A DNA stretch of 64,000 nt from Neorhizobium petrolearium. GTDB lineage: Bacteria; Pseudomonadota; Alphaproteobacteria; Rhizobiales; Rhizobiaceae. The notes beneath the pieces were generated by a model that saw only the letters and a list, made by a program, of their open reading frames with translations, had not been told where the DNA came from and searched no databases. The DNA is taken from positions 124,001 through 188,000 of the forward strand of contig NZ_JAGGJW010000008.1 of the NCBI RefSeq assembly GCF_017873175.1, read 5' to 3'. Of this stretch, positions 48,454-63,743 are shown piece after piece. A program made the translations under genes and the position numbers. The stretch's first letter is position 1. The number at the start of each line of letters is the position of its first letter.

Positions 48454-49506
48454 TTATTGAACTCCAACGTCGGACACCGGCTTTTCCCTGCGGCCCTGGT
48501 GATCGAAGAAATGCAGTTTTTCCGCTTGCGCCGTGAGTCCGATCTCGCTGCCGAGGGATGGTGCCATATGGTCGTCGCTGGTCACCAGGCACAGCTGTCC
48601 ATCCGGCAGCGTGACATGGAGAAGCGTGATGGCACCGGTATATTCGCAGAGGCTTACTTTGCCGCGCACGATGCCGTCTTGAGCTTTGCTCACCTTCAGA
48701 TGCTCGGGGCGCACACCCACGCTCTCAGCCGAAGCCGGAACAACGGCCGCGGGAGTGAGCAGCTGTGCATTGGCTGCCGGCAGCACGTTCATCTTGGGAC
48801 TGCCGATAAACTGGGCGACGAACATATTGGCGGGCCTTTCATAAAGCTCACGTGGTGAGCCCACCTGCTCGATCCGCCCGTCGCGGAGCACCACGATCTT
48901 GTCAGCCAGCGTCATCGCTTCAATCTGGTCGTGAGTGACATAGATCATCGTGGTCGACAGCCGCTTGTGAAGGGCTGCGATTTCGGAGCGCATGTGCACG
49001 CGCAACTCGGCATCGAGATTGGAAAGCGGCTCGTCGAAAAGAAACACGTCCGGATTGCCGACGATAGCACGCCCGATCGCCACGCGCTGACGTTGGCCGC
49101 CGGAGAGTTCGCGCGGGTAGCGATCGAGCAGGGCGTCGAGCTTGAGCGTAGCGGCTGCCTCGTTGATGCGCCGCTGGCGCTCCCCTGCCGGTACTTTGCG
49201 CACCTTCAGGCCGAAGCCCATGTTGTCCCTGACTGTCAGATGGGGATAAAGGGCATAAGACTGAAAGACCATGGCAACACCACGCTCGGAGGGTTGGACC
49301 TCGTTCACCAGCCGGTCTCCGATCATCAGCTCCCCGTCGCTGATATGTTCGAGCCCGGAAATAAGCCGCAGGAGCGTGGATTTTCCGCAGCCGGAAGGGC
49401 CGACGAACACGACGAACTCGCCGTCATCAATCCTGAGATCGACGCCGCGGATGACGTTGACGCTGCCAAAGTGTTTTTCGATGCCTTTGAGCAAAAGACT
49501 GGTCAT
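48454..49506 (-). CDS. Sugar ABC transporter ATPase (UgpC family), second island
   Basis: A 350-residue CUT1 ATPase. Walker [10 protein letters not shown], signature [14 protein letters not shown], Walker [17 protein letters not shown], switch His YVTHD, and a C-terminal TOBE domain (about 235-350). It is the last gene of the leftward operon of permeases and binding protein at 49.5-52.5 kb. It converges with the nitrate operon. Confidence 0.96.
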   Translation of the reverse strand: MTSLLLKGIEKHFGSVNVIRGVDLRIDDGEFVVFVGPSGCGKSTLLRLISGLEHISDGELMIGDRLVNEVQPSERGVAMVFQSYALYPHLTVRDNMGFGLKVRKVPAGERQRRINEAAATLKLDALLDRYPRELSGGQRQRVAIGRAIVGNPDVFLFDEPLSNLDAELRVHMRSEIAALHKRLSTTMIYVTHDQIEAMTLADKIVVLRDGRIEQVGSPRELYERPANMFVAQFIGSPKMNVLPAANAQLLTPAAVVPASAESVGVRPEHLKVSKAQDGIVRGKVSLCEYTGAITLLHVTLPDGQLCLVTSDDHMAPSLGSEIGLTAQAEKLHFFDHQGRREKPVSDVGVQ

Positions 49507-49519
49507 GGGAATAGCTTTC

Positions 49520-50362
49520 TCATCCCTTCACGCCGGAAAGCGCGAAACTCTCGATGATTTGTCGTTGCGCGATCAGATAGACGATCAGGATCGGCACCAC
49601 TGCGAGACTGGTTGCGGCGAGTTGCAGGTTCCAAAGGGGTAAACCGTAGCTGTCGTTGAAATTGGAGAGCGCGAGCGGCAGTGTGAACATCTCCAGCGAA
49701 CTCACGAAAATCAACGGCTCCAGGAACAGGTTCCAGGAGAAGAGGAAGGTGATGATCGCAACGGCCGCCAGCGCCGGGCGCGACATCGGCAGTGCGATCT
49801 GCCACCAGACGCCGAAGCGGGAAAGGCCGTCCATCTTGCCGGCTTCCTCCAGTTCCTTCGGTAGCGCGAGGAAATACTGTCGCATGAGGAACGTCGCCAT
49901 CACGCCATGGGGGCCGAAGGTCGGCAATAGGATCAGCGGCCAGTGCGTGTCCATTAGACCTGCCCAGCGCATCAGGAAGAAGTTCGGGATGATCGTCACC
50001 TCTTCCGGCACCATCAGCGCGGAGATGAGGAACAGCATCAGCAACCCGGCACCCGCAAAGCGCATGCGCGCCAGCGCGTAGCCTGCGAGCGAGGCGATGA
50101 CGAGGGTGAGCACCGTCACCAGGATCGCGATGTAGAGCGAATTGAAATACTGCCGCGCAAAGGGCTGATAGGTGAAGACCTCGATGAAATTCTGCCAGCG
50201 CCAGACACGCGGAATAAGCGTGGGCGCGCCGAAAATCTCAGTCACGCTTTTGAAGCCCGCCGAGACCATCCAGATAAATGGAAAGACGAAAGGGATTGCG
50301 GCAATCAGCAAGGCTATCGTCCAGCAGGCGCGATAAAGGATCTGGATCTGGCGCTGTGTCAT
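49520..50362 (-). CDS. Sugar ABC transporter permease (MalG type), second island
   Basis: A 280-residue permease with six helices and EAA loop EAGKMDGLSRFGVWWQIALPMSRP. It overlaps the upstream permease gene by 4 nt and is followed after 13 nt by the ATPase. The C-terminus ESFALSGVKG is typical of CUT1. Confidence 0.95.
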   Translation of the reverse strand: MTQRQIQILYRACWTIALLIAAIPFVFPFIWMVSAGFKSVTEIFGAPTLIPRVWRWQNFIEVFTYQPFARQYFNSLYIAILVTVLTLVIASLAGYALARMRFAGAGLLMLFLISALMVPEEVTIIPNFFLMRWAGLMDTHWPLILLPTFGPHGVMATFLMRQYFLALPKELEEAGKMDGLSRFGVWWQIALPMSRPALAAVAIITFLFSWNLFLEPLIFVSSLEMFTLPLALSNFNDSYGLPLWNLQLAATSLAVVPILIVYLIAQRQIIESFALSGVKG

Positions 50363-51288
50363 TCCATGCCCTTTCGTCTCAGCATCACCTGCACGATGGT
50401 CAGCGCCATGACGATGACGAACATGATCATGGCAAGCGTCGAGGCATAACCGACGTTGAAGAACTTGAAACCCTGCTGGTAGATGTAGAAGGCGAGCACC
50501 AGTGTGCCGTTTTCCGGGCCACCACCCGTCATCTGATAGATGTGGTCGAACACCTTGAACGAGCCGATGGTGGTGATGACCATGATCACAAGTGTCGTCG
50601 GCGCGAGAAGCGGCCAGGTGATCATGCTGAAGATCTGCCAGCGTGAGGCACCTTCAAGACGCGCGGCCTCCTCATAATCCCGCGGAATGGCCTGCAACGC
50701 CGCAATGTAGAGGATCATGTTGAGGCCAACCATTTTGATGACGCGGGTGATGATCACTGCTGCCATCGCCCAACCGGGCTCACGCAGCCAGTTGGGTCCG
50801 GTGATGCCCACCAGAGCCAGCACCTGATTGATGAAGCCGCCTTCACCCTGCAGCAGGAATTTCCACACGATCGCCCAGGCGATCGCCGAAGTAATCACCG
50901 GTGCGAAAAACACCGTGCGGAAGAATACGACCCCGAAGAAGGGGCGCGAGAGCGCAAGCGCAAGCGTCAGGGCCAGCGCCATGTTGAGGGGCACGAGGCC
51001 GAGTGCGAAGATGACCGAATTGCGTACGACATGCCAGAAATCAGGGTTCTCCAGCAACGCATTCTCGAAGTTGCGCAGGCCGACGAATGTCGCCTGCTGG
51101 GTCAGCAGGTTCCATTCGGTCAGCGAGTAATAGACAACAGCGCACAAAGGGCCGAGGAAGAAGATAAGAAAGCCGATGAAGGACGGGCTGACAAACAGCC
51201 ACGCCTCCATCATCTCCCTTGCTTTCAACGTCAGCCAGGGCTTCTGGCTAGTGCGCGTCGTCTTGAGGTTGTGAATGATATCGGTCAT
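50359..51288 (-). CDS. Sugar ABC transporter permease (MalF type), second island
   Basis: A 309-residue permease with LFVSPSFIGFLIFFLGPLCAVVYYS-like first helix and EAA loop YEEAARLEGASRWQIFSMITWPLLAP. I use ATG 51288 (MTDIIHNL) following CCGAAG; an upstream frame overlapping the binding-protein gene has no ribosome binding site. It forms the importer with the neighbouring permease. Confidence 0.94.
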   Translation of the reverse strand: MTDIIHNLKTTRTSQKPWLTLKAREMMEAWLFVSPSFIGFLIFFLGPLCAVVYYSLTEWNLLTQQATFVGLRNFENALLENPDFWHVVRNSVIFALGLVPLNMALALTLALALSRPFFGVVFFRTVFFAPVITSAIAWAIVWKFLLQGEGGFINQVLALVGITGPNWLREPGWAMAAVIITRVIKMVGLNMILYIAALQAIPRDYEEAARLEGASRWQIFSMITWPLLAPTTLVIMVITTIGSFKVFDHIYQMTGGGPENGTLVLAFYIYQQGFKFFNVGYASTLAMIMFVIVMALTIVQVMLRRKGME

Positions 51289-51299
51289 CTTCGGTCGTG

Positions 51300-52547
51300 T
51301 CAGAGCAGCGGCTGGATCGCCGAGCAGATTCCCTTGATGGCTGCGTCGACATCGGCATTCGCCTTCCACAGGGCATCGACGCGGGGCGCCATGGCGGCGA
51401 GAATCTGCGGCGACTTTTCATGAGCAGGATGCACCCGGCCATTGGCGATTGCCGCCGCGACATTCTTCATCATTTCCGGCGGAATGAGCTTGTTGCCGTT
51501 AATGAAGGCGTCGCTTTCAAGCACGCTCTTGCGTGCCGGCGGGAAGAACTGCGCCATGATGGCGACATTCTCCTTGCTGGTCATATGGGCGATGAATTCG
51601 GCAGCAATGTCCTTGTTCTTGCCTTGCGCGAAGACGACAAGACCGGCCTGGCCGATCACGGGCGATTCACCACCGGGTCCGGACGGCAGCGGTGCGATGC
51701 CCCACTTGAAGCCGGCTTCCGCCATCTTCGATGCGCGCGAGATCTGGTTCACCGTCATTGCCGAATTGCCGGAGAAATAGTCACCCTGTTCGCCGGGCGG
51801 CACGATCGACTTGTCCTTGAAGACCATGTCATGCAACTGCTTAACCGCTTTGATTGCCTCGGGCTTGTCGAAGCCGCATTCATGGTTCGACCAGATGTCG
51901 CCACCATAGGCCCTGATCGGGGGCAACAAGGCATGGGTCATGCGTGACGCATAACCTTCGCCGTCCTTGAACTCGAAACCCCATTTGCCGGGATTGGCCG
52001 CGGTCAGCTTTTTGGCGACCTCCTGGAACCTGTCCATGTTCCACTCGCCTTTTGCAGCGAGCGCCAGCGGATCTTCGAGGCCGGCTTTGTCGAACATGTC
52101 CTTGTTGTAATAGATCATGAAGGGCGAGGTGGAGAAGGGAATGCCGTATACCGTTTCGTCCTTCTGCCAGAGGCCCATTGCCGGCTGAGAGAAGTCGGCG
52201 AAATCATAGCCTTCGGTGGCTTTGAGCGTCGGACCGAGATCCATCAAGAGGTTGGCGTTCTCGAAGGCCGGCGCCGCATCCTCCATCATCCAGGCAATGT
52301 CGGGCGGATTTCCGCCGGCAACCTGGAAGGTCAGCTTCTGGGTGTAGTCGTTGACCGGCACCGTCTCGAATTTCACGTTGACATCGGGATGCTTGGCCTT
52401 GAAGCCTTCGGCGATGCCGTTGAGCATTTTGAGATGCACCTCGCTGCCGGTCCATACCGTCATGCGGAGATCCGTCGCGACGGCGGTGGACGTCATTGCG
52501 CATAATGTCAGAGCGGATGCTGCTATACCTGCTAGTGCGGCCCTCAT
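51300..52547 (-). CDS. Sugar ABC transporter solute-binding protein, second island
   Basis: A 415-residue family 1 binding protein. The signal peptide is MRAALAGIAASALTLCAMTS with cleavage near ATA (about 25). The mature chain starts LRMTVWTGSEVHLKMLNGIAEGF and keeps the YYNKDMFDKAG and GNSAMTVNQISRASK regions. The ligand is presumably a sugar or sugar-acid derivative handled by the neighbouring oxidoreductases. Confidence 0.93.
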   Translation of the reverse strand: MRAALAGIAASALTLCAMTSTAVATDLRMTVWTGSEVHLKMLNGIAEGFKAKHPDVNVKFETVPVNDYTQKLTFQVAGGNPPDIAWMMEDAAPAFENANLLMDLGPTLKATEGYDFADFSQPAMGLWQKDETVYGIPFSTSPFMIYYNKDMFDKAGLEDPLALAAKGEWNMDRFQEVAKKLTAANPGKWGFEFKDGEGYASRMTHALLPPIRAYGGDIWSNHECGFDKPEAIKAVKQLHDMVFKDKSIVPPGEQGDYFSGNSAMTVNQISRASKMAEAGFKWGIAPLPSGPGGESPVIGQAGLVVFAQGKNKDIAAEFIAHMTSKENVAIMAQFFPPARKSVLESDAFINGNKLIPPEMMKNVAAAIANGRVHPAHEKSPQILAAMAPRVDALWKANADVDAAIKGICSAIQPLL

Positions 52548-52590
52548 GGTTTCCTCCCCTTTGGTCGCTGGAAATCAACCCTCATCGAGT

Positions 52591-52675
52591 GAATGCCTTG
52601 GCATTCCCTCCGATTGCGGGCAGTTCGCTGCGGCCTGTTTGAACAGGCCACCCTTGCGGCGAATAGATCCGCCGC
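52591..52675. other. Three consecutive hairpins upstream of the binding-protein gene
   Basis: GAATGCC/GGCATTC (52591-52606), GGCCTGTT/AACAGGCC (52632-52649) and GCGGCG/CGCCGC (52656-52675) form three small stems in the 156-nt gap between the SDR stop and the binding-protein start. They may process or stabilise the mRNA so that the binding protein is made in excess, as in other importer operons. Confidence 0.55.
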
Positions 52676-52703
52676 GATTGTCTTCAAATCCCGCGCGCGC
52701 CGA

Positions 52704-53495
52704 TCATCCGGACGCTCCGGGAAGAGTGCCGGGCGCATCGCCGACCGACCATCCTCCGTCGACCGGAATGTTCGCGCCCGTGATGTAGCTTGCAGCATCA
52801 CTGCAGAGAAAAACGAAAGCTCCGACCAGATCCTCCGGCTGGCCCTGTCGGCCCAAGGGGATTTTGGCCGTAACCGCCTTGAGGAATTCCGGATCACTGT
52901 AGCGTTCGGCGTTGGCCTCGATTTGGATGGCGCCTGGCGAAACGACATTGAGTGTAACGCCGCGATGCCCGACGTCACGAGCAATGGCGCGCACCGCCGT
53001 CAATTGTGCCGCCTTGAGCGATGCGTAGACCACGGTTTCGGCCCGGGGCCGCGTCGCCATGATGCTGCCGGTCGCAATCACCCGGCCCCAGCCGCGTTTC
53101 GCCATTGGCGGAACAAGCTTGCCCGTGAGGGTCAGCAGCGCCGAAAAGTTGGCCGCGACATGGGCATCAATATGGGCGTCATCCACCTCCTGCCAGGGCA
53201 AGCGGCGTTCGATGGCGGCATTGGCGATCAGAATGTCGATCGGGCCGTACTGGTTGACCACATTATCTGCAAATGTCGCTATGGCCCGCTGATCGGTAAA
53301 GTCTGCCTCAAGCACCGGGGTGTCATCGCCGATCACGCGAGCTACTTCTCTTGCACCCGTTTCGTTGCCGAAATGGTGAAGGATGACGTCGGCGCCCTGC
53401 TCGAAGAGTCCGAGTGCCACAGCCCGGCCAATGCCGGAACTTGCGCCGGTCACCAGCGCGCGCCTGCCCTTCAGCGAGAAACGCGGCGATGTCAT
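52704..53495 (-). CDS. Short-chain dehydrogenase/reductase (SDR) 1
   Basis: A 263-residue classical SDR. The cofactor motif is TGASSGIGRAVAL, NNAG is replaced by IANAAIE, the catalytic Ser lies in VIATGSIMA, and the YxxxK dyad is YASLK. Likely oxidises a sugar or sugar acid. It overlaps the regulator gene by 4 nt, so SDR, regulator and importer genes appear to be one leftward unit. Confidence 0.93.
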   Translation of the reverse strand: MTSPRFSLKGRRALVTGASSGIGRAVALGLFEQGADVILHHFGNETGAREVARVIGDDTPVLEADFTDQRAIATFADNVVNQYGPIDILIANAAIERRLPWQEVDDAHIDAHVAANFSALLTLTGKLVPPMAKRGWGRVIATGSIMATRPRAETVVYASLKAAQLTAVRAIARDVGHRGVTLNVVSPGAIQIEANAERYSDPEFLKAVTAKIPLGRQGQPEDLVGAFVFLCSDAASYITGANIPVDGGWSVGDAPGTLPGASG

Positions 53496-54250
53496 GACGC
53501 ACCGCCGCCTAACTTGTCGGCAACTTCCAGTGATGCGATGTCGGCAGCGTCGAAATGAACCCGTATGCTCTGCTCGGCCAGATCGGCATCGCCGGCGGCA
53601 ATCGCGTCATAGATCGCCTGGTGGCGGGCGATCGTGGCGCGCCAATCGGCATCGCTGCGGTTGGCCCGGCGCGAAAACAGTTCGGAAACCTCGCGTTGCA
53701 CGGAGCGCATGCCTTCCATCTGCACGCGGATCATGGCGTTGCCTGTGGCCATGGCAAGGCCGAGGTGGAAAAGAATATCGGCCGCAGTGAAGCCGGCAGG
53801 TTCATGCAGCGATGCCCGCATGTCGATCAGCCCCTGTCGCATGGCTTCAAGGCCTTCCGGATCACGCCGCTCAGCGGCGAGCCGGGCGATGCCCGCCTCG
53901 ATCACCCGGCGCATCTCGTTGGCTTCCTGCAGACGCTTCAGGCTGGAACGTACCGCATAGCCATAGATGCGATCCATCGGCTCGCCGCTGAGGGCTTTGG
54001 CGCGCGCCACCTTGCCCTGCTGGGTGAAAATCAGCCCGGCGGCCGTCAACTGGCGCAGCGCCTCGCGCGCAATTGGCTTGGAGACGCCGAATTCCCTGGC
54101 GATTTCACCTTCCGGCGGCAGAGGTTCGCCGGGCGAAATGCGACCATCGAACAGGGCGGCTGCGATCGCGTCGGACACCCCGTCCGCCAGCCGTGACGGG
54201 CTGGCTGGCTTGGATGTGAATACGGGTTTCCGTTCCGGATTGGCGGTCAT
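53492..54250 (-). CDS. GntR-family (FadR/FCD) regulator, second island
   Basis: A 252-residue FadR-type regulator. The winged helix (about 15-80) includes ISPGEPLPPEGEIAREFGVSKPIAREALRQLTAAGL; the FCD domain has ADILFHLGLAMATGNAM and ARHQAIYDAIAAGDADLAEQ. ATG 54250 follows GAGGAAACAG; a start four codons upstream is also in frame. It faces the dehydratase gene across a region containing a 32-bp operator-like element also found upstream of SDR 2, so it probably controls both. Confidence 0.92.
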   Translation of the reverse strand: MTANPERKPVFTSKPASPSRLADGVSDAIAAALFDGRISPGEPLPPEGEIAREFGVSKPIAREALRQLTAAGLIFTQQGKVARAKALSGEPMDRIYGYAVRSSLKRLQEANEMRRVIEAGIARLAAERRDPEGLEAMRQGLIDMRASLHEPAGFTAADILFHLGLAMATGNAMIRVQMEGMRSVQREVSELFSRRANRSDADWRATIARHQAIYDAIAAGDADLAEQSIRVHFDAADIASLEVADKLGGGAS

Positions 54251-54288
54251 CTGTTTCCTCATATTTTTAACAATAGCACAACAGTTTG

Positions 54289-54320
54289 TAACTTAGCAAC
54301 TAGGTTTATCAGTTGCCAAG
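54289..54320. promoter_or_regulatory. Operator-like element, copy 1
   Basis: TAACTTAGCAACTA at 54289-54302, then GGTTTATC, AGTTGCC and AAG to 54320. It contains the inverted repeat GCAACT/AGTTGC. It matches the element at 59131-59162 at 26 of 32 positions and lies between the divergent regulator and dehydratase genes, where an autoregulating FadR-type repressor would bind. Confidence 0.75.
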
Positions 54321-54392
54321 ATGATAGCTGATCGCTAAAACTAGCAAAACCGCCCGAAAGCGGCGACTGAATTGTGGAGGACAATAAAGCCG

Positions 54393-55538
54393 ATGGAGCC
54401 CACGCATCCTGCAGCCAAGGAGGCGATCCGCATAACGGATGTGATCGCCCACCCCCTGAGTCAGACGCTGCCGAAGCCGACGGTAACGTCCTGGGGCACC
54501 TACAGTCAGGTTTCGATCGTGCTGGTCGAGCTGCGAACCGATGCCGGTATCATCGGCGTCGGCGAGACGCTCGCGCGGTTCTCACCCAAGGCTTATGCGG
54601 AACTGATAGAAACCTCGCTCAAGCCTCGCCTTGTCGGGCAGGATGCACGCAACATCGGTGCATTGTGGCAATCCATGCGCCGCTCGCTCTCCGGCCGCGC
54701 CGGCGGCATGCTGATCGAAGCGATCGCGGGAATCGATATCGCGCTTTGGGACATTCTCGGAAAGGCGGCGGGCCTTCCGGTCGCCAAACTGCTCGGCGGC
54801 ATGGGGCGCGAGCGAATCGATGTCTATGCCGCCGCCGTGAACTGGGTAGACGACGCCGAGGCCGACAGGGAATTGGAGCGCTATATCAACGAAGGGTTTC
54901 CGCGTATCAAGGTGAAGATAGCGAAGCCGGTGAAGGGAGCCTGCCGGCGTATCGAGCGTTTGCGCAAGCGCGCCGGCGACGATATCGGCCTCTGCGTCGA
55001 TGCGAACTGGGCCTACAATCTCGATGAGGCGATCGAGGTCGGGCGGGCGCTGGCTGCCAATGGCTATTTCTGGTTCGAGGAACCCCTGGCGCCGGAAAAC
55101 GAACAGGGCTACGAAGAATTGCGCAAGCGTTGCGATGTGCCGATCGCTGCCGGCGAAAGCAACTTCACCGCCGATCAGGCACAGCGGCTCGTCGCCAGCC
55201 GCACCCTTTCCGTCCTCCAGCCGGATGTCGCCCGCGCCGGCGGCATATCCGAGACGCGGCGCATGGCCGATTATGCCGGCCTGCATGATGTCGCTTATGC
55301 TCCGCACATCGGCATGTCCGGCATTATCTGCGAAACGGCAAGCGTTCATCTGGCGGCCGCACTTCCGAATTTTCGGGTCATGGAATGCGAATGCGACCTG
55401 AGTCCCTTCAAGCGCGAGCTCGCTGATCTCCACCCGGGTTGCCTGCGGCAGAAAAATGGCACGCTTGATGTTCCGAATGGCCCCGGCCTCGGCATTGAAA
55501 TCAATTGGGGCGCCGTAAAGCGGCTCCGCGTGCAGTGA
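54393..55538 (+). CDS. Enolase-superfamily dehydratase (mandelate racemase/muconate lactonizing type)
   Basis: A 381-residue enolase-superfamily enzyme. The KxK motif IKVKI near residue 175, metal ligands in VDANW, WFEEP and AAGES, and the Asp/His pair in LQPDVARAGG and APHIGMSG fit the mandelate racemase subgroup, which dehydrates sugar acids by abstracting the alpha proton. The substrate is probably a sugar acid, but the superfamily is too diverse to name it. GGAGG lies 12 nt before ATG 54393. It starts a rightward three-gene unit. Confidence 0.9.
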   Translation: MEPTHPAAKEAIRITDVIAHPLSQTLPKPTVTSWGTYSQVSIVLVELRTDAGIIGVGETLARFSPKAYAELIETSLKPRLVGQDARNIGALWQSMRRSLSGRAGGMLIEAIAGIDIALWDILGKAAGLPVAKLLGGMGRERIDVYAAAVNWVDDAEADRELERYINEGFPRIKVKIAKPVKGACRRIERLRKRAGDDIGLCVDANWAYNLDEAIEVGRALAANGYFWFEEPLAPENEQGYEELRKRCDVPIAAGESNFTADQAQRLVASRTLSVLQPDVARAGGISETRRMADYAGLHDVAYAPHIGMSGIICETASVHLAAALPNFRVMECECDLSPFKRELADLHPGCLRQKNGTLDVPNGPGLGIEINWGAVKRLRVQ

Positions 55539-55550
55539 GGCCATGACACG

Positions 55551-56462
55551 ATGACGACACCCTTTCACTTCCCCATGGCCAAAATGACCGAGGCAATGCG
55601 CCTGGCCATGCTCCGGGCCGATCCCGCGCTGAGCCGGTTCGACCCGCTGCCGCGCATCCTCTCCTTCGACGACTTTTCGCGCGGCCATTGCGGCTGGTCG
55701 CAGCTTGTCGGCAATTATGAGGACAGTCTCGATTCCATGCTGCCGGGCTATGCCCAGCATTCCAGCGCCATGCTCTCGACTCTGGGGCATTGGGATGCCG
55801 GCTCCCATGGCGGCATGGATTCCTCCTATGCGTTGAAAATTGCCACGAGGGCCCGGCCTGGCGCGCAGAACGTCGCGATCAAACGCCACACGTTTCGCAG
55901 GCGTGGGCCGATCCGCTTCGAGCTCTTCTTCACCTTCAAACCTGAAGCGACAGAGCTGAAACTCTCCGAGACCGATGTGCGCTCGGTCGGTTTGCTGTTC
56001 GACCTTCAATGCGGCGACCGTGACGGCGATGGTGAACGTGTCATGCCTCATCTGCGTTTTCTGAACGCGCTCGACGGCAAGCATTTGCAGAAATGGCAAT
56101 ACAAGCGCGAGACCACGCACCTCATGCCGATCGGTAGCGAGGACAAGACAGTCAGCCACTATCACCTTGCCCCCGGGGGATGGCTCGATCTGCCGGATGG
56201 CGAGCAACGACTCTGCTACAACGAAATTCCGACCAAAGTGAACTGGAGCTACCTGCGCTTCGACTTCGATCTCGTCTCGATGAAGGCGCTCGGTCTTCAG
56301 TGCAACGACCGCAGCTTCGATCTCTCGAACTTCGATTCGATCCGCATTCCGGCCATGAAGAACCTGTGGTGCATGCTGAATTTCTGCCTGTTCGCCGAGA
56401 CAGATGTCGCCAAACGCGCCTTCCTGTATGTGGATTCTATTTGCATTTCGGGGGATTTCTGA
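55551..56462 (+). CDS. Unrecognised protein, second island (1)
   Basis: A 303-residue protein I do not recognise. It has no signal peptide or membrane segment and is rich in aromatic residues, with HYHLAPGGWLDLP and a C-terminal FLYVDSICISGDF reading like a beta-sandwich (carbohydrate-binding or cupin-like). The N-terminus contains HWDAGSHGGMDSSYALK. It is 12 nt after the dehydratase and overlaps the next gene by 1 nt, so it belongs to the sugar-acid pathway operon. Possible role: lactonase, hydrolase or binding protein. Confidence 0.65.
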   Translation: MTTPFHFPMAKMTEAMRLAMLRADPALSRFDPLPRILSFDDFSRGHCGWSQLVGNYEDSLDSMLPGYAQHSSAMLSTLGHWDAGSHGGMDSSYALKIATRARPGAQNVAIKRHTFRRRGPIRFELFFTFKPEATELKLSETDVRSVGLLFDLQCGDRDGDGERVMPHLRFLNALDGKHLQKWQYKRETTHLMPIGSEDKTVSHYHLAPGGWLDLPDGEQRLCYNEIPTKVNWSYLRFDFDLVSMKALGLQCNDRSFDLSNFDSIRIPAMKNLWCMLNFCLFAETDVAKRAFLYVDSICISGDF

Positions 56463-56797
56463 TGCTGCCCGAAAATATCACCGCCGTCGTTTCCCGCAAC
56501 GAGCGCTGGAGCGGCGATGCCGCGAGCGAGCCCCATGAAGCCGGCTGGGCGCATGAAGCCGTCTTCTTTGTCCGCGCCCTTAAGGATCCGGTCGGAAAGA
56601 TGCCCAAGGGCTGGGTCGAGATTTCCCCCGATGGCATGCATTGGGTGCCGGAGGGAACGGAATTCGCCATGCCTTTGCAGCGCGACGGCATCGCTGTCGC
56701 CCGCCTCAAAGGCTTCGGAAACTGGTTGCGCGTCGCCACTCGTTTCGAGGATGGCGCAGAATGTACCGTGCTGGTTACGCTGCATCTAAAAGCCTGA
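56462..56797 (+). CDS. Unrecognised small protein, second island (2)
   Basis: A 111-residue protein overlapping the stop of the previous gene by one base (TGATG). It is beta-rich (VEISPDGMHWVPEGTEF, GFGNWLRVATRF, CTVLVTLHL), resembling an immunoglobulin-like or small sandwich fold. I do not recognise the family. Probably works with its overlapping neighbour. Confidence 0.65.
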   Translation: MLPENITAVVSRNERWSGDAASEPHEAGWAHEAVFFVRALKDPVGKMPKGWVEISPDGMHWVPEGTEFAMPLQRDGIAVARLKGFGNWLRVATRFEDGAECTVLVTLHLKA

Positions 56798-56798
56798 A

Positions 56799-56836
56799 AC
56801 GATAAGGGGGCAGAGAGATCTCTGCCCCCTTATCGT
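56799..56836. terminator. 38-bp perfect palindrome between convergent genes
   Basis: Starting ACGATAAGGGGGCAGAGA and mirrored exactly to 56836, it sits between stops at 56797 and 56842 and can form a stem of up to about 17 bp on either strand. A bidirectional terminator is the simple explanation, though the T-tract is missing. Confidence 0.7.
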
Positions 56837-56841
56837 CCCCC

Positions 56842-58236
56842 TCAGCCGAGATAGGCGCCCTGGGCCAGAAGCTCGCGTCGCAGGTCTTCGTAATCGACAT
56901 GCCGCGGGCTCGCCCGGTTGCCCACCGAGAGCGCGGCAGCAATCCCGGCGGCCTGTCCGAGTGCGAAACAGGGCGGCATGACGCGGATGGCGCTCAGTGC
57001 CTCATGGGTGGCTGAAACTGCCCGGCCTGATACGAGAAGGCCATCGTGATAGCGCGGCAGCATTACACGGTAGGGTATCCGGTAGATATTGGCTGTGGCC
57101 GGTGCATCGCCACCCGTTCCGCCGCCCGATCCTGTCGGATCGTGAATGTCGAGGGGATAGCCGCAAAGGGCAATCACATCTTCGAACGAGCGGCCCGAAC
57201 GGAGGTCGTCCAGGGTCAATTCATAGTCGCCATCGATGCGGCGCGTCTCTCGAACGCCGATCTGCGTTGCGGTATCCCTGAGTTCGACCTTTTCGAAACC
57301 GGGGAGATTGTTGCGGAAGAAGTCGAGCAATGCCAAGGTCTGCTCGCGGCCTTCGAGCTCCGCCAGGGTCAGCTCCTTTGCATCAGTACCGTTACGGCGG
57401 AGCACACGGCCGGTATTGATGCGCCAGACGCCGGGCTCCATGGTCTTGTAGAGCCCGATGCCACGCCGTGGGGCCGGGAAGCGGCCTTCCGCGGTCGCCT
57501 TCGCGACAATCGAGGCATAAGGCCGGTAGTCCTCCGGGTGAGACCGGACGTATTCCTCAACCACCTGATCGTTGACGTTCTGGACGCGGAAGAACAGGGT
57601 CTGCGGCTGGGCAAGGCCGTCGCTGTCTCGCCCCTGTCGCGTATGCACGCCTGCGAAATGGGCGACATCGCCATCGGCGGAGCAATCCACCACGACCTTC
57701 GCGCGGGCGGCCCTCAGGCCGCCTTTGCCCGCGCAGACGACACCCAATATCCGCGGGTTGATCGCCTCGTAGTCGTCGACAATGGCATCAACGACCATCG
57801 TATGCAGCAGTAGATCGACACCGGCTTCCAGGCACATACGCTGAGCCACCACCTTTGCTGCCTCCGGCTCGAAGGGCGTGACCTTGTCATGGCCGTAGAC
57901 GATGAAGCCGCTGTAGGCGGATCCGGCCGGAATGGTGCTCGGATGCAGGGCACCCCCAATCGCCATCATGCGCTGCACGAATTCCTCGTATACGCCGCGG
58001 ATGAGTTGCTGGCTCCCGTCGAGCGAATAGGATGTCATGCAAGGGCCGACGAGACCCGCTGTCAGGTTTCCTCCGAGAAAGCCGTAGCGTTCGATCAGGC
58101 GAACTCGCACATTGAGGCGTGCCGCCGCCACGGCGGCCGATATTCCCGAAGGTCCGCCTCCGATGACGAGCACGTCGACGTCATCGAATTCGGGAATATC
58201 GGCCGAATAGGCGTAGCGCTGCTCAATCTCCTCCAT
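56842..58236 (-). CDS. FAD-dependent oxidoreductase
   Basis: A 464-residue flavoprotein of the FAD_oxidored type. The dinucleotide-binding site is DVLVIGGGPSGISAAVAAARL near residue 22, the ADGDVAHFAGV motif near 186 and the C-terminal GRAVSATHEALSAIRVMPPCFALGQAAGIAAAL. The gene lies after SDR 2 in a leftward unit, and it likely oxidises an alpha-hydroxy acid, polyol or amine in the same pathway. Cytoplasmic; no signal peptide. Confidence 0.88.
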   Translation of the reverse strand: MEEIEQRYAYSADIPEFDDVDVLVIGGGPSGISAAVAAARLNVRVRLIERYGFLGGNLTAGLVGPCMTSYSLDGSQQLIRGVYEEFVQRMMAIGGALHPSTIPAGSAYSGFIVYGHDKVTPFEPEAAKVVAQRMCLEAGVDLLLHTMVVDAIVDDYEAINPRILGVVCAGKGGLRAARAKVVVDCSADGDVAHFAGVHTRQGRDSDGLAQPQTLFFRVQNVNDQVVEEYVRSHPEDYRPYASIVAKATAEGRFPAPRRGIGLYKTMEPGVWRINTGRVLRRNGTDAKELTLAELEGREQTLALLDFFRNNLPGFEKVELRDTATQIGVRETRRIDGDYELTLDDLRSGRSFEDVIALCGYPLDIHDPTGSGGGTGGDAPATANIYRIPYRVMLPRYHDGLLVSGRAVSATHEALSAIRVMPPCFALGQAAGIAAALSVGNRASPRHVDYEDLRRELLAQGAYLG

Positions 58237-58253
58237 CCCATTGCCCTCCGGTA

Positions 58254-59039
58254 TCAGCGAAACATCGAGCCGCCGTCGACGTCGAGCGCCGCGCCGTAGA
58301 CGAAGCTGGACGCATCCGAGCAGAGGAACAGGATGGCGGCGGCCATATCTTCCGGCCTGCCCATCCGCCGCATGGGCAGATTTGCAGCGATGCGCTCCTT
58401 CAGCGAAGGATCGATATGAGCATGCATGGGGGAATCGGTTGGTCCGGGGTTGAGGGCATTGATCCTGACCTTCTTGCCGGCAAGTTCACGCGCTACGGAC
58501 TTGACCAGCGACAGTGTCGCAGCCTTCGATGCTGCATAGGCGGTGTCGGCGATCAGTCCCCCGCCTCCGTGAACGCCGGCATCCGAGGCCACGCAGACGA
58601 TGTTGCCGCCCGCAGGATTTTCGAGCATGCGCTTCACGCCGGCCTGCACCGTAAAGAAGGTCCCAAGCAGATTGACGTTCAGCACGCGCTGCCAATGGCC
58701 CCAGTCCTGTTCGAAGAGGCGCTTGGCGGTGATGATTGCGGCGCAGGTGACGATATTGTCCAGTCGCCCGAGATGAGCATCGCAATAGGCGAAAGCCTCA
58801 GCAATGCTCTCGGGATTGCTGACATCCACCTTCACGGTATGAATCCTGGCTCCGCCTTTTCGCAACTCCGAACCATAGCGCTCGAGCCCCGCCTCGTCGC
58901 GATCGGCCATCACCACTTCTGCTCCCTTGGCGGCAAAAGCGCGGGCAGTTTCCAGCCCCATGCCGCTCGCGGCGCCGGTGATCAGTATGGTTCGCCCGGC
59001 GTAACTGTCATCGGCAAAGGGCGTATAGGCTTGGGTCAT
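58254..59039 (-). CDS. Short-chain dehydrogenase/reductase (SDR) 2
   Basis: A 261-residue SDR with TGAASGMGLETARAFA, Asp in MADRDEAG, catalytic YAASK and C-terminal DVDGGSMF. Probably an NAD-linked sugar or polyol dehydrogenase. Upstream (59131-59162) lies the second copy of the 32-bp operator-like element. The FAD oxidoreductase follows after 17 nt. Confidence 0.93.
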   Translation of the reverse strand: MTQAYTPFADDSYAGRTILITGAASGMGLETARAFAAKGAEVVMADRDEAGLERYGSELRKGGARIHTVKVDVSNPESIAEAFAYCDAHLGRLDNIVTCAAIITAKRLFEQDWGHWQRVLNVNLLGTFFTVQAGVKRMLENPAGGNIVCVASDAGVHGGGGLIADTAYAASKAATLSLVKSVARELAGKKVRINALNPGPTDSPMHAHIDPSLKERIAANLPMRRMGRPEDMAAAILFLCSDASSFVYGAALDVDGGSMFR

Positions 59040-59130
59040 CGGTAAATGTCCTTGATTGGAAGCGCGGCTGGGAAAGACAGGGGTGGATGAACAGCACCGA
59101 TCCAGGGGTGATGCCGTCTAACCTGGGAGA

Positions 59131-59162
59131 TAACTTAGCAACTATGTTTTCTAGTTGTAAAG
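59131..59162. promoter_or_regulatory. Operator-like element, copy 2
   Basis: TAACTTAGCAACTA at 59131-59144, then TGTTTTCT, AGTTGTA and AAG to 59162. Copy of the element at 54289-54320 with 26 of 32 bases identical; here the inverted repeat is CAACTA/TAGTTG. It lies 92 nt upstream of SDR 2. Confidence 0.75.
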
Positions 59163-59262: not shown

Positions 59263-60333
59263 TTATTGCGGCATCCATCCCGCCGCCAAGGGATGATCCA
59301 AGCCAAGGGGCAGCCGCACGATTTGATTTTGGCGAGCCGAGGCGTAGATCGCGGTAATGAGCTCAATCGAGTGATAGCTCTCCTGAAGCGTCGGCAGATA
59401 GAGGTCGGGCTGGCCCGTGAGGCAGGCGTGGATGTCGGCAAACAGGCCGGGGAATCTCGAAAGCATCCCCGGAATATCGGAGACGGCCGCATCGATCTCG
59501 GCCTGTCGTGACGGATCGGTTGACGTGAAAATCCAGGGACCCGCGCCGATCTGGTAAGGTTCCGTGCCCGAGGTTACAGTAACATGCTCGAAGCACATCC
59601 GAAGTCGTGAGCTGTTTCCCGCGGCACCTAATGTGACCGAGGAGGTGACCAGGGCTCCCTCGCTGGTGCGCATGGAAAGGGCGGCGCAATCTTCGGTCTC
59701 CACGGGATTGACGCGCGTGTCCAGAAAGGCTGCTATTTCGGTGACATCGCCGACAAGGTGGGTCATAAGATTATGGATATGGCAAGCGTGGCTGACGAGG
59801 ACTCCACCGAGCTCTCCCTTCCAGGTGCCTCGCCACCGCTCCTCATAATAGGTGGGGCCACGCTGCCAATGGGTCTCCAAGGCCACCAAATAGGGCTTTC
59901 CCAACAAGCCGCGTATCTTCAACTCGTGCGCTGCACGATAGCCGGCTCCATAGCGATACTGAAATACCGGGAAGACCTGTCTGCGCATCTTCGCCGCGAG
60001 GTCAGCAATGCGCCGAACGTCGGCGATCGAGCCCGCCAACGGTTTTTCGCAGACCACGTGCTTCCCGGCCTCCAGCGCGACCATAGTCATTGTGGCATGC
60101 AGTTGGGGTGGCAGGCAGATGTCGACGAGATCCACTTCGGGATCTGAGAGAACCTGGTTTATGTCTCCTATGGCCCGGCTGCCAGGTGCTTGCCCGGCCG
60201 CCTCTTCCGCGCGGGCTAGGTTGAGATCGCAGACATAGCGCACCGCAAATAATTCCGGCAGCGTCGCATAAGCGGCCACGTGGGCTTTGCCGATGCCTGC
60301 CCCGACGACTGCCACGCGGATGCGATCGCTCAT
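59263..60333 (-). CDS. Gfo/Idh/MocA family oxidoreductase 1
   Basis: A 356-residue NAD(P)-dependent oxidoreductase. N-terminal Rossmann motif VAVVGAGIGKAHVAAY, conserved EKP lysine motif VVCEKPLAGS near residue 95. The start ATG 60333 overlaps the next gene's TGA (ATGA). Such enzymes oxidise sugars, inositols or their derivatives; specificity unknown. Confidence 0.93.
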   Translation of the reverse strand: MSDRIRVAVVGAGIGKAHVAAYATLPELFAVRYVCDLNLARAEEAAGQAPGSRAIGDINQVLSDPEVDLVDICLPPQLHATMTMVALEAGKHVVCEKPLAGSIADVRRIADLAAKMRRQVFPVFQYRYGAGYRAAHELKIRGLLGKPYLVALETHWQRGPTYYEERWRGTWKGELGGVLVSHACHIHNLMTHLVGDVTEIAAFLDTRVNPVETEDCAALSMRTSEGALVTSSVTLGAAGNSSRLRMCFEHVTVTSGTEPYQIGAGPWIFTSTDPSRQAEIDAAVSDIPGMLSRFPGLFADIHACLTGQPDLYLPTLQESYHSIELITAIYASARQNQIVRLPLGLDHPLAAGWMPQ

Positions 60334-61352
60334 CGAGTTGCGCCGCCTTCCGCCAAAAACTGTGCCTGCAGCGCAAGTTCGGTCGCAAGGAACGCATGGG
60401 ATTGAGACATGGCGGTCTCGGTTCGGTTTTTCACATCGGCGGCAAGTCTTCCGAAGAAAGGCTTGCCCGCGCCTTTGGCATCGAACCGCTGGACGCCGGA
60501 TTTGTCGGCGAGAAAGACGTGATCCCCACCGGGTTGGCCCGCAATGTCGATATACTTGCGCAGTTCGATATAGCCGTCGGTCCCGAGAATTGTCATTCGC
60601 CCGTCTCCCCAGACGGGAAGGCCATGTGGCGTCAGCCAATCCACCCGTGCATAACCACGGCCCCCACTGCCTTCCAGCAGCGCTTCGCCAAAGTCCTGGA
60701 AATCCGGCCGATCCGGATTCGCAACATTGGCAACGTGAGCCGAGATCACCCGAGCTTCGGTGGACCCGGTGAAATGCAGGAACTGGTCGAATTGATGGGC
60801 GCAGATATCGGTCAGGATGCCGCCGCATCGCGTCCGGTCCCAGAACCAGCCCGGCCGGAGATGGGCATTGAGACGGTGCGGCCCGAGCCCCACCGTCTGG
60901 ACCACCGTTCCGATCCGGCCTTCGGCAATCAGGCGGTCCGCCAAAGTGGCGCTTTCAACGGACACACGCTCGGAGAAAGAGACAAGCCAACGACGTCCGG
61001 TCTCCGCCACAGTCGTGCGGATATCCGCAAGCTGCTTCAGGCTCGTGCAGCCGGGTTTATCGACCAGCACATCCTTACCGTGCAACATGGCGGAAATCGC
61101 AACCCCGGCGCGTTCGCTGTTGATGCCCGCGGAGAGAATGAGATCGATACTCGCCTCTTCCAGAATGGCCTGCGTCGATCGAAGCGGTACATCCGGATAG
61201 GTGTCCCGGAAGGTCTTGCGTGCCTCATTAGGGGTCTCATCGCCCGTTGTCCATGCAACGAGCGTGGCATTGGCCTCCCGCATGCCTTCGATCATGCCGT
61301 AGATGTGCCCATGGTCTATATCGATGACGCCGATGCGGAGGTCGAAGGCCAT
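60330..61352 (-). CDS. Gfo/Idh/MocA family oxidoreductase 2
   Basis: A 340-residue member of the same family with VIDIDHGHIYGMIEGM instead of a canonical glycine-rich loop and DKPGCTS in place of EKP. The GGILTDICAHQFDQFLHF segment carries the catalytic Asp/His. It is a 4-nt overlap partner of oxidoreductase 1 and lies 4 nt after oxidoreductase 3; AAAGGATAG precedes ATG 61352. The altered N-terminal loop suggests different cofactor binding or a different role from its neighbours. Confidence 0.9.
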   Translation of the reverse strand: MAFDLRIGVIDIDHGHIYGMIEGMREANATLVAWTTGDETPNEARKTFRDTYPDVPLRSTQAILEEASIDLILSAGINSERAGVAISAMLHGKDVLVDKPGCTSLKQLADIRTTVAETGRRWLVSFSERVSVESATLADRLIAEGRIGTVVQTVGLGPHRLNAHLRPGWFWDRTRCGGILTDICAHQFDQFLHFTGSTEARVISAHVANVANPDRPDFQDFGEALLEGSGGRGYARVDWLTPHGLPVWGDGRMTILGTDGYIELRKYIDIAGQPGGDHVFLADKSGVQRFDAKGAGKPFFGRLAADVKNRTETAMSQSHAFLATELALQAQFLAEGGATR

Positions 61353-61356
61353 GGGA

Positions 61357-62652
61357 CTATCCTTTGAGGTGGATGCCGCGGGCCCGCAGCATCGACTGGA
61401 TGTTGACGAGCGAGCCGGTCTCGATGGAGGCGTTGGCGGCGATGCCGGTGAGAATGGACCATGCGCCGGCGACATGGTCGGAAGCGCGGCCATAGCGGTC
61501 CGGCTCCATGCTTTCCGGATCGAAGATATATCCGAGCATGACCGGATCGGCACCGCCGTGGTCGCCCTTCGCCATTGGAACCTGGACCAGGCGTGGCGGC
61601 TCGCCGGCCAGATGCAGTTCGGTGGTGATCGCATCTTCGTTCGCATGCGCGCGTTTGCCGCCGAACACGCCGTGGACCTCGACATGGCGATGGGTGATGT
61701 CGCCCTTGGTTCCCTGGAATTTGATCTCCAGCCCTTCCCAAGGCGAATAGGCGGTCAGGGTGTAGTTGGCGGTGACGCCGGACGCATAGCGAATATGCGC
61801 CTGCATCGTATCCTCGATGCCGATCTCCTCGTCGAAGACGCAGCGGTCGCGGAAATAGCCGTCTTCGCTTTCTGCCTCGACGTAGAGCGCGCGCAGATTT
61901 TCGTCCGCCGACAGATCGAGCTCGAAATCGCATCTGTCGGCCACGGGACAGCCTGTGCAACGCGGACCGCGGCCTGCAAGTCCCAGTTCGGCCGCCATTT
62001 CCGGGCGATAAAAAACCCGCTTGCCGGATGCCAGAACCTCGGTCGGCGCCGAGCCGAGCCACCAATTGAGCAGGTCGAAATGATGCGTGGACTTATGGAC
62101 CAGCAGCCCACCGGAATTTTCCTTCTGCCGGTGCCAGCGTCGGAAGTAGTCGGCGCCATGAACGCGGTCGAGATGCCAGCGGAAGTCGACGACCGTCACC
62201 GTCCCGATCGTGCCGGAGGCTATAAGCTCCTTGATCTGGGTGCGGGCGGGAGAATACCGGTAGTTGAAGGTGACTGTGACCTTCCGGCCGGTCCGCCTCT
62301 GGGCATCGATAATCTGCTTCAGGCGGGTGAGGTCGATCGTCAGCGGTTTTTCACAGATGACATCGCAGCCGGCTTCGAAAGCGCGGACGATATAGTCGGC
62401 ATGCAGGAAGTCGGGCGTTGCCACGACCACCGTATCCGGCTTCTGTTCCGCAATCAGGCGGTCGAAATCGGAAGCAAGATAGGTCGCGACGCCGTTCGTT
62501 CCCGGCTTGGGGACTGCCTTGGCTGCTTCTCCCAATCGATGGGCATTGCTGTCGCAGAGCGCGACAATCTCGTGCTTGTCTGCGTAATCTTCGATCACGG
62601 AATCGCGGAACATCTGATGCCGCGAACCACATCCGACAATGGCAATCTTCAC
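61357..62652 (-). CDS. Gfo/Idh/MocA family oxidoreductase 3
   Basis: A 431-residue oxidoreductase with IAIVGCGSRHQMF and CEKPLTID. It carries an insertion with RCTGCPVADRC near residue 230 (possible structural zinc site) and an extended C-terminal region. The GGLLVHKSTHHFDLLNWW segment has the catalytic Lys/His. It overlaps the upstream ABC ATPase gene by 4 nt. Confidence 0.93.
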   Translation of the reverse strand: MKIAIVGCGSRHQMFRDSVIEDYADKHEIVALCDSNAHRLGEAAKAVPKPGTNGVATYLASDFDRLIAEQKPDTVVVATPDFLHADYIVRAFEAGCDVICEKPLTIDLTRLKQIIDAQRRTGRKVTVTFNYRYSPARTQIKELIASGTIGTVTVVDFRWHLDRVHGADYFRRWHRQKENSGGLLVHKSTHHFDLLNWWLGSAPTEVLASGKRVFYRPEMAAELGLAGRGPRCTGCPVADRCDFELDLSADENLRALYVEAESEDGYFRDRCVFDEEIGIEDTMQAHIRYASGVTANYTLTAYSPWEGLEIKFQGTKGDITHRHVEVHGVFGGKRAHANEDAITTELHLAGEPPRLVQVPMAKGDHGGADPVMLGYIFDPESMEPDRYGRASDHVAGAWSILTGIAANASIETGSLVNIQSMLRARGIHLKG

Positions 62653-63743
62653 TGGACCAGGCTTTCGTTCTGAGTGGGCTCGACGCGCTGACCGGCGCTG
62701 TCGAAATAATGGAGGTCGAAGAGGTCGAAGCCGATCGTCACCGGATCGCCCATGCGATAGGGATTGCGGCCGCTATCGCTGACAAGCAGCACCTGGCCCG
62801 AAGGCAGGGCCACATGCAGTAACGTCTCGCTACCAAGATATTCCACAAGCCGGATCGTTCCCTCGGTCGTGACATCGCCGTCGCCCACCTGCAATGACGA
62901 AGGGCGCACGCACAAGGTCATGGCTTCGCTCGTCGCTCTAAGAGCAGGAATGGCGAACCGGGGCAGGCCGGCAATGTCGACGAAGGTCCGGCCCGCCTCA
63001 TGTAACACCTTTGCCTGCAGCATGTTGATCTTGGGCGAGCCGATGAAGCCGGCAACGAAAAGGTTCTGGGGCCGGGTGTAGAGCTCCTGTGGCGTTCCGA
63101 CCTGCTCGATCTTGCCGCCCCTCAGCACCACGATGCGGCTTGCCATGGTCATGGCCTCCACCTGGTCATGCGTCACATAAATCATTGTCGTTCCGAGACG
63201 CGTATAGAGGGAAGCCAGTTCGGCCCGCATCTGCACACGCAGCTCGGCATCGAGGTTGGAAAGCGGTTCGTCGAAGAGGAAAAGCTGCGGCTCGCGCACG
63301 ATCGCCCGGCCGATCGCCACGCGTTGCTTCTGCCCGCCGGAAAGCTGGCGCGGCTTGCGGTCCATCAACTGCTCGATCTGCAGGATGCGAGCTGCCTCGG
63401 CCACCCGGTGTTCCACTTGCTGGCGCGGAACGTTGAAATTCTGCAGGCCGAAAGCAAGGTTTTTCCTGACGTTCATGTGGGGGTAGAGCGCATAGCTCTG
63501 AAACACCATCGACAGCTCGCGTTTGGAGGCGGGCAGGTCGTTAACGATCCGTCCGCCGATGGCGATTGTTCCTTCGCTGATGTCCTCCAGGCCGGCGATC
63601 ATGCGAAGAAGGGTGGATTTCCCGCAGCCCGAAGGGCCGACGAGGACAAGAAATTCGCCGTCGCGAATATCGAGGTTCAAACCCTGGATGATGGACAGCG
63701 CCCCGTAGCGCTTGCCGACGTTTCGAAGCGTCAATCCTGCCAT
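62649..63743 (-). CDS. Sugar ABC transporter ATPase (UgpC family), third importer
   Basis: A 364-residue CUT1 ATPase: Walker [10 protein letters not shown], signature [14 protein letters not shown], Walker [17 protein letters not shown], switch YVTHD and a TOBE region from about 235. It overlaps oxidoreductase 3 and follows a permease gene after 12 nt, so importer and oxidoreductases form one leftward operon that continues beyond the window. Confidence 0.96.

Follow-up and report, generated by a model that had tools for sequence, protein, structure and literature searches.

Two predicted operators of a GntR/FCD regulator in a putative acid-sugar island of Neorhizobium petrolearium

Two very similar intergenic elements lie at 54289-54320 and 59131-59162 of a 64,000-nucleotide stretch of Neorhizobium petrolearium DNA (positions 124,001 to 188,000 of contig NZ_JAGGJW010000008.1; this whole stretch is called the window here, and all coordinates refer to it). 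Comparison with related loci leads us to propose, with a probability of about 0.82, that both serve the FCD-type GntR regulator encoded at 53492-54262 as operators, and that this protein is an autoregulated repressor switching three transcription units. The assignment of the sites to this regulator is well supported, and its joint control over the importer, the dehydratase, two short-chain dehydrogenases/reductases (SDR1 and SDR2) and the flavoprotein encoded nearby is the most likely reading of the island. The recognised unit is best taken as the 17-bp palindrome AACnTAG-N3-CTAnGTT, which occurs at two positions:

54290 to 54306, minus strand: predicted primary operator AACnTAG-N3-CTAnGTT, AACCTAGTTGCTAAGTT on the minus strand, found upstream of the regulator gene in 49/49 ortholog loci.
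59132 to 59148, minus strand: predicted second operator upstream of SDR2, AACATAGTTGCTAAGTT on the minus strand, with perfect arms in 13/13 rows (12 loci plus the window) that have a separate SDR2.

The two elements are alike at 26 of 32 positions, including an identical block of 14 bases (TAACTTAGCAACTA), and the runner-up place in the window has 20 of 32 positions in common with the first element. Each of the two elements is intergenic, one being located between the regulator gene (minus strand) and an enolase-type gene (ATG at 54393, plus strand), the other about 93 bp ahead of position 59039, where SDR2 starts. As a null model, both intergenic regions were Markov-shuffled 1,000 times and the best ungapped 32-mer identity was scored. 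The shuffles reached a mean of 18.3 and a maximum of 22, so that a chance match is excluded. Furthermore, the genome of the strain (6,971,623 bases in 64 contigs) was searched with the long pattern, allowing up to 3 mismatches, and with the 17-bp palindrome, allowing up to one mismatch. Both searches returned these two places only, with 1 and 8 matches, respectively, for the reversed controls. The coordinates, the 26/32 match, the common block and the intergenic placing given in the original prediction were all confirmed on the sequence, and its statement that the match is unlikely to be due to chance holds. The genome-wide motif search that it had proposed, with occurrence at many unrelated loci as the refuting outcome, left it standing.

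The palindromes are centred at 54298 and 59140. For column statistics 49 distinct sequences were used, with 50 rows including the window, and the near-invariant part of the primary element across these rows is AACnTAGTTGCTAnGTT. Both arms of the primary operators are perfect in 41/50 rows, and the centre reads TTG in all 50. In the second operators (n = 13, 12 loci plus the window) the arms are perfect throughout; the centre is TTG in eight of them and TAG, CAT, AAA or CAG in the other five. As the arms of the second operators stay fixed while their centre and the adjoining box change, the palindrome is regarded as the unit. The original prediction had instead assigned an inverted CAACT/AGTTG core to the elements. 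This repeat does exist, but the symmetric unit that is invariant across species is AACnTAG-N3-CTAnGTT, and CAACT/AGTTG was rejected as operator core because the second operators retain the palindrome arms and not the centre or the box.

To follow the element through related bacteria, one genome per species was sampled and 80 of 92 regulator relatives were compared. Those at 49 loci (L036-L084; 63-92% identity) were taken as orthologs and the other 31 relatives (27-34%) were left out; two orthologs (L081 and L083) with very long tree branches, which may hold sequence errors, were kept. The ortholog loci come from Rhizobium, Mesorhizobium, Microvirga, Martelella, Paracoccus and others. In every one of them the element starts 50-110 bp upstream of the regulator match, as would be expected of an autoregulated GntR divergon, in which an operator between the regulator gene and a divergent catabolic operon is kept in relatives. 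Where SDR2 is separate and oriented against the enolase operon (12 loci), a second operator was found about 100-120 bp upstream of SDR2 in 12/12 cases. These second operators score 21.6-31.9 bits, as compared to a maximum of -2.8 for shuffled copies (one per locus, both strands). No second operator was found in the eight loci with SDR2 inside the enolase operon (0/8), nor in the 29 loci without an SDR2 of at least 60% identity in the available DNA (0/29). Some of the 49 loci are short upstream of the regulator (less than 4 kb in L061 and L064), and an SDR2 lying far off, together with its operator, could escape notice there. The association between a separate SDR2 and the second operator is a consistent pattern in these sequences. 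Counting 12/12 versus 0/8 as independent events was rejected, since each pattern forms one clade.

The specificity of the palindrome was assessed in three sets of genomes. Among 60 relative genomes, including that of the strain itself, four carry a close ortholog (73-100% identity), and 7 of the 11 matches with up to one mismatch fall into these four; the other 4 lie in 3 genomes without one, and the reversed control gave 8 matches. In 17 ortholog genomes, two of which overlap with the 60, all 24 places with 0-1 mismatch are inside the island. They comprise 17 primary and 7 second operators, and a second site is present in each of the 7 genomes in which SDR2 is separate and in none of the others. 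At 2 mismatches ten matches appear outside the island, the control with up to 2 mismatches giving 48. Finally, 397 genomes of the order, again including that of the strain, were scanned with a 31-bp pattern at up to 2 mismatches, a regulator match with an E-value up to 1e-70 being counted as ortholog. The pattern was present in 6/6 genomes with an ortholog, directly upstream of it, versus 4/391 genomes without (control, 12 matches). These six genomes are not independent, as four of them share one genus; in those four the mismatches fall into the box, next to a perfect palindrome. A widespread motif is rejected by the scans of the own genome, the relatives, the ortholog genomes and the order.

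Because the palindrome follows the regulator lineage, precedes the regulator gene and fronts SDR2 where this forms its own unit, we assign the sites to the regulator. In the proposed mechanism a regulator dimer would cover the 17-bp palindrome and thereby block the promoter of the regulator, SDR1 and importer genes, whose -35 element probably lies within the palindrome. The same dimer would hinder the back-to-back dehydratase promoter with its -35 element in the adjoining box, and a second dimer at the second site would block the promoter of SDR2 and the flavoprotein gene. Release of the regulator by an intermediate of the pathway, which may be an acid sugar, would turn on all three transcription units together, the importer presumably being expressed by read-through from the regulator promoter. 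The proposal of one GntR regulon, for which a look at homologous islands had been suggested as a check, was supported by the presence of the element in all 49 ortholog loci and by the second copy in the 12 loci with a separate SDR2, but the operator core had been misassigned and the importer is joined to the regulon through presumed read-through alone.

Our preferred reading of the long inverted repeat is that an FCD palindrome overlaps -35 elements placed back to back. Three putative promoter features belong to this reading:

54309 to 54320, plus strand: box adjoining the palindrome, CTTGGCAACTGA on the minus strand; TTGCCA at 54313-54318 is the probable -35 of the enolase-type gene and TAAAAC at 54336-54341 a possible -10, judged by the spacing of the -10-like hexamer.
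54270 to 54299, minus strand: possible regulator promoter, with TTGCTA at 54299-54294 (the palindrome centre), 18 nt, and TATTGT at 54275-54270; hexamer spacing gives it moderate support.
59151 to 59162, minus strand: box of the second element, CTTTACAACTAG on the minus strand, containing a possible SDR2 -35 (TTTACA); CTTTACA is present in 8/8 distinct second operators, and its promoter role is presumptive.

For orientation, the sigma-70 consensus of Sinorhizobium meliloti is given as CTTGAC-N17-CTATAT in PMC2573895. The -10-like hexamers were defined by a weighted TATAAT score of our own. Toward the enolase-type gene, TTGCYA of the box is followed by such a hexamer 16-18 nt on in 88% of 48 distinct flanks, as compared to 2-44% at non-overlapping spacings. 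Toward the regulator, 61% of 49 flanks have one 17-19 nt behind TTGCTA of the palindrome centre (non-overlapping spacings, 0-43%), and this spacing lends moderate support to a promoter there. Back-to-back -35 elements would explain why TTG at the centre is invariant before the regulator gene, whereas the second operators vary there.

Alternatively, the whole element of 29-31 bp could be a double site for two dimers or a tetramer, with a weaker inverted copy centred 16 bp away, so that the box would be a protein site, either alone or besides its role as -35. The primary box CTTRGCAACT indeed mirrors AGTTGCYAAG of the palindrome, and its distance is constant in primary and second operators; weaker half-sites 7-12 nt from the centre are described beside GntR-family palindromes in PMC4494728, and a tetrameric FCD regulator exists according to PMC7797058. 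We nevertheless consider a double site unlikely. Conserved positions of the palindrome are variable in the box and vice versa, so the two appear to be under different constraints, and the box does not follow the base constraints of a half-site. Its positions 4 and 5 vary although their palindrome partners are fixed, and the second operators have CTTTACAAC instead. Four ortholog genomes that are more distant combine a perfect palindrome with a degraded box (CATAGCAAT or CATAGCAAA), and the hexamer at the right spacing behind TTGCYA in 88% of the flanks fits a -35 element.

The DNA-reading head of the regulator is unusual as well. In PMC4494728 the operator consensus of the FadR subfamily is TKGT/ACMA with GT and AC 2-3 nt apart, and Arg35 and Arg45 of FadR contact G; the contact of Arg45 with guanine is also shown for the FCD regulator Atu1419 in PMC7797058. 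At the position of FadR Arg45, lysine is found in 45/50 rows, including the window regulator, and arginine in five; at the position of Arg35, 49/50 rows have glycine. When 50 of 57 available non-orthologous FCD regulators were compared, all 50 had arginine at position 45, which places the window regulator outside the reading heads with Arg at this position. The altered reading head and the altered site fit together, with an imperfect match within the lineage. Covariation between residue 45 and base +3 was rejected as proof of a contact for being too weak, C at +3 occurring in 3/5 Arg rows (one clade) and 0/45 Lys rows.

Several observations weigh against the model of an autoregulated repressor. 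A strict scan for consensus promoters found none in either intergenic region, and the promoter positions given above therefore stay putative. In the regulator tree the rows with separate SDR2 (13 including the window) and those with SDR2 in the operon (8) each correspond to one change. The palindrome departs from TKGT/ACMA and is not a typical FadR-subfamily operator; the regulator is nonetheless kept as a subfamily member because PMC4494728 lists members with other sites. Among the five orthologs with Arg45, two keep the usual site; the other three, which form one clade, carry C at +3. The gap between SDR1 and the binding-protein gene (52548-52703, 156 bp) is without an operator and could hold a promoter of the importer itself. 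Finally, the palindrome lies upstream of the putative dehydratase -35, which would also suit an activator.

This last arrangement is what speaks for a regulator that activates the dehydratase operon while repressing itself. We regard this as rather improbable, since the palindrome overlaps the putative promoter of the regulator and, at the second operator, that of SDR2, which fits repression, although the sign of control cannot be read from sequence. It is still less probable that another regulator reads the palindrome and that the FCD protein is merely encoded alongside. Predicted binding does rest on comparison, and the palindrome misfits the subfamily consensus, but the element tracks the FCD ortholog in the 397 genomes and stands upstream of its gene in all 49 loci, the FCD protein is the sole regulator among the ten proteins scanned, and the odd site is accompanied by an odd reading head. 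A chance match or a recent duplication without function, for which nothing speaks beyond the likeness of two elements within one genome, can practically be dismissed in view of 0/1,000 shuffles reaching 26/32 and of arms kept in 49 loci and in the second operators of 12.

The genes of the island that would be controlled by the autoregulated repressor, together with its own, are the following:

53492 to 54262, minus strand: GntR/FCD regulator, start at 54262 or 54250 (Pfam GntR PF00392, 2e-16; FCD PF07729, 4.9e-24).
52704 to 53495, minus strand: SDR1, overlapping the regulator gene (Pfam adh_short_C2).
48454 to 52547, minus strand: ATP-binding cassette (ABC) importer with binding protein (Pfam SBP_bac_8), two permeases and ATPase (these three from translations and conserved synteny).
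54393 to 55538, plus strand: enolase-superfamily (MR/MLE) dehydratase or cycloisomerase (Pfam MR_MLE_N and MR_MLE_C; 47/49 loci).
55551 to 56462, plus strand: DUF6772 protein (PF20562, 1.4e-134; 49/49 loci).
56462 to 56797, plus strand: protein of 111 residues without Pfam or NCBIfam match (49/49 loci).
56842 to 58236, minus strand: flavoprotein, an oxidoreductase dependent on flavin adenine dinucleotide (PF12831, 4.5e-127; 10/49 loci).
58254 to 59039, minus strand: SDR2 (Pfam adh_short_C2; a separate unit in 12 and within the enolase operon in 8 of 49 loci).

The regulator belongs to the FCD subfamily by both domains, with 59.8 bits for PF00392 (cut-off 27) and 85.6 bits for PF07729 (cut-off 24.3). 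By sequence, the solved structures nearest to the enolase-type protein are the putative mandelate racemases 3ozm and 3h12 and the uncharacterised 4ggb, with the galactonate dehydratase 5olc among the next; on these grounds it fits an acid-sugar dehydratase or cycloisomerase, the substrate of which we leave unnamed. The 111-residue protein follows DUF6772 in all 49 loci at 61-87% identity and has a confident all-beta model (mean predicted local distance difference test score, pLDDT, 95); a structural search with this model gave no clear relative, only assorted beta-fold matches with 6-16% identity among the matches listed. Deriving a function of DUF6772 from its fold was rejected, the model being poor (mean pLDDT 62) and the best matches, lectin-like or alginate-lyase-like beta folds, having template modelling scores below 0.5. 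At two loci (L048 and L058) the regulator, operator, DUF6772, the 111-residue protein, SDR2 and the flavoprotein are kept and the enolase-type gene was not found; thus, the DUF6772 and 111-residue pair is not strictly dependent on an enolase-type gene nearby.

The 156-bp gap in front of the importer contains two hairpin-forming stretches, GCGGCGGATCTATTCGCCGC and GGCCTGTTCAAACAGGCC, which may set importer expression relative to the regulator and SDR1. With hairpins and no operator in this gap, the importer could also have an independent promoter. In a number of loci (L044, L047, L057, L059, L060, L063, L067, L069, L071 and others) about 0.8 kb extra, room for one gene, lies between SDR1 and the binding-protein gene, so that the binding-protein match is near +2.5 kb from the regulator start as compared to +1.6 to +1.7 kb. 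In PMC8751395 the CUT1 binding-protein gene RL3840 of Rhizobium johnstonii 3841 is reported to be upregulated 2.6-fold in the rhizosphere of pea. The chromosome of this strain carries one of the island loci (L039), and RL3840 is a candidate for its binding-protein gene. On the far side of SDR2, the minus strand of 59263-63743 encodes three Gfo/Idh/MocA-type proteins and an ABC ATPase; no operator copy was found there and this set is therefore probably outside the regulon.

Overall, it is very probable that the regulator docks on the palindrome, and if so, an uncharacterised cluster for sugar uptake and breakdown would be one jointly controlled unit. An anonymous catabolic island in 49 loci becomes one testable regulon with an operator defined base by base, which keeps the separate SDR unit through the second operator. 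The regulon also provides an entry point to DUF6772 and to the protein of 111 residues, for neither of which a function was found, and offers a natural case in which an FCD reading head and its site depart jointly from the usual pattern. Whether the lineage forms a separate DNA-reading class, with Arg replaced by Lys and the half-site TKGT by AACnTAG, that controls an undescribed acid-sugar pathway around the enolase-type dehydratase, DUF6772 and the 111-residue beta protein is a more tentative idea, which we hold at somewhat less than even odds.

The kind of system, a GntR/FCD divergon, is already known. In the searches made of the open-licence literature no match was found for the operator sequence or the target pathway, and no paper on DUF6772; the operator sequence led solely to an unrelated paper on a sheep microsatellite. 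The divergons of DgoR, UxuR, LldR and GlcC, as described in PMC4494728, resemble the present one in the GntR helix-turn-helix combined with FCD, in a palindrome in the divergent intergenic region and in a regulator beside its targets. In contrast to these, the present site is AACnTAG-N3-CTAnGTT and not TKGT/ACMA, and the reading head has Lys at position 45 and Gly at position 35, where FadR has Arg. BioR and NanR, in the same paper, are FCD proteins that likewise read sites off the consensus, but TTATMKATAA of BioR and the direct repeats TGGTATAW of NanR are both unlike the present palindrome. The extra half-sites of the GntR family described in that paper, 7-12 nt from the centre, resemble the present arrangement in that a weaker inverted box stands beside a palindrome, whereas the box described here has its own pattern of conservation and looks like a -35 element. 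Atu1419 of Agrobacterium fabrum, as presented in PMC7797058, is similar in being an FCD regulator beside catabolic genes in related bacteria, with sites overlapping promoter elements, which in our case are putative. It is a tetrameric repressor whose site, ATGTATACAT, with Arg45 on guanine, differs from the palindrome proposed here.

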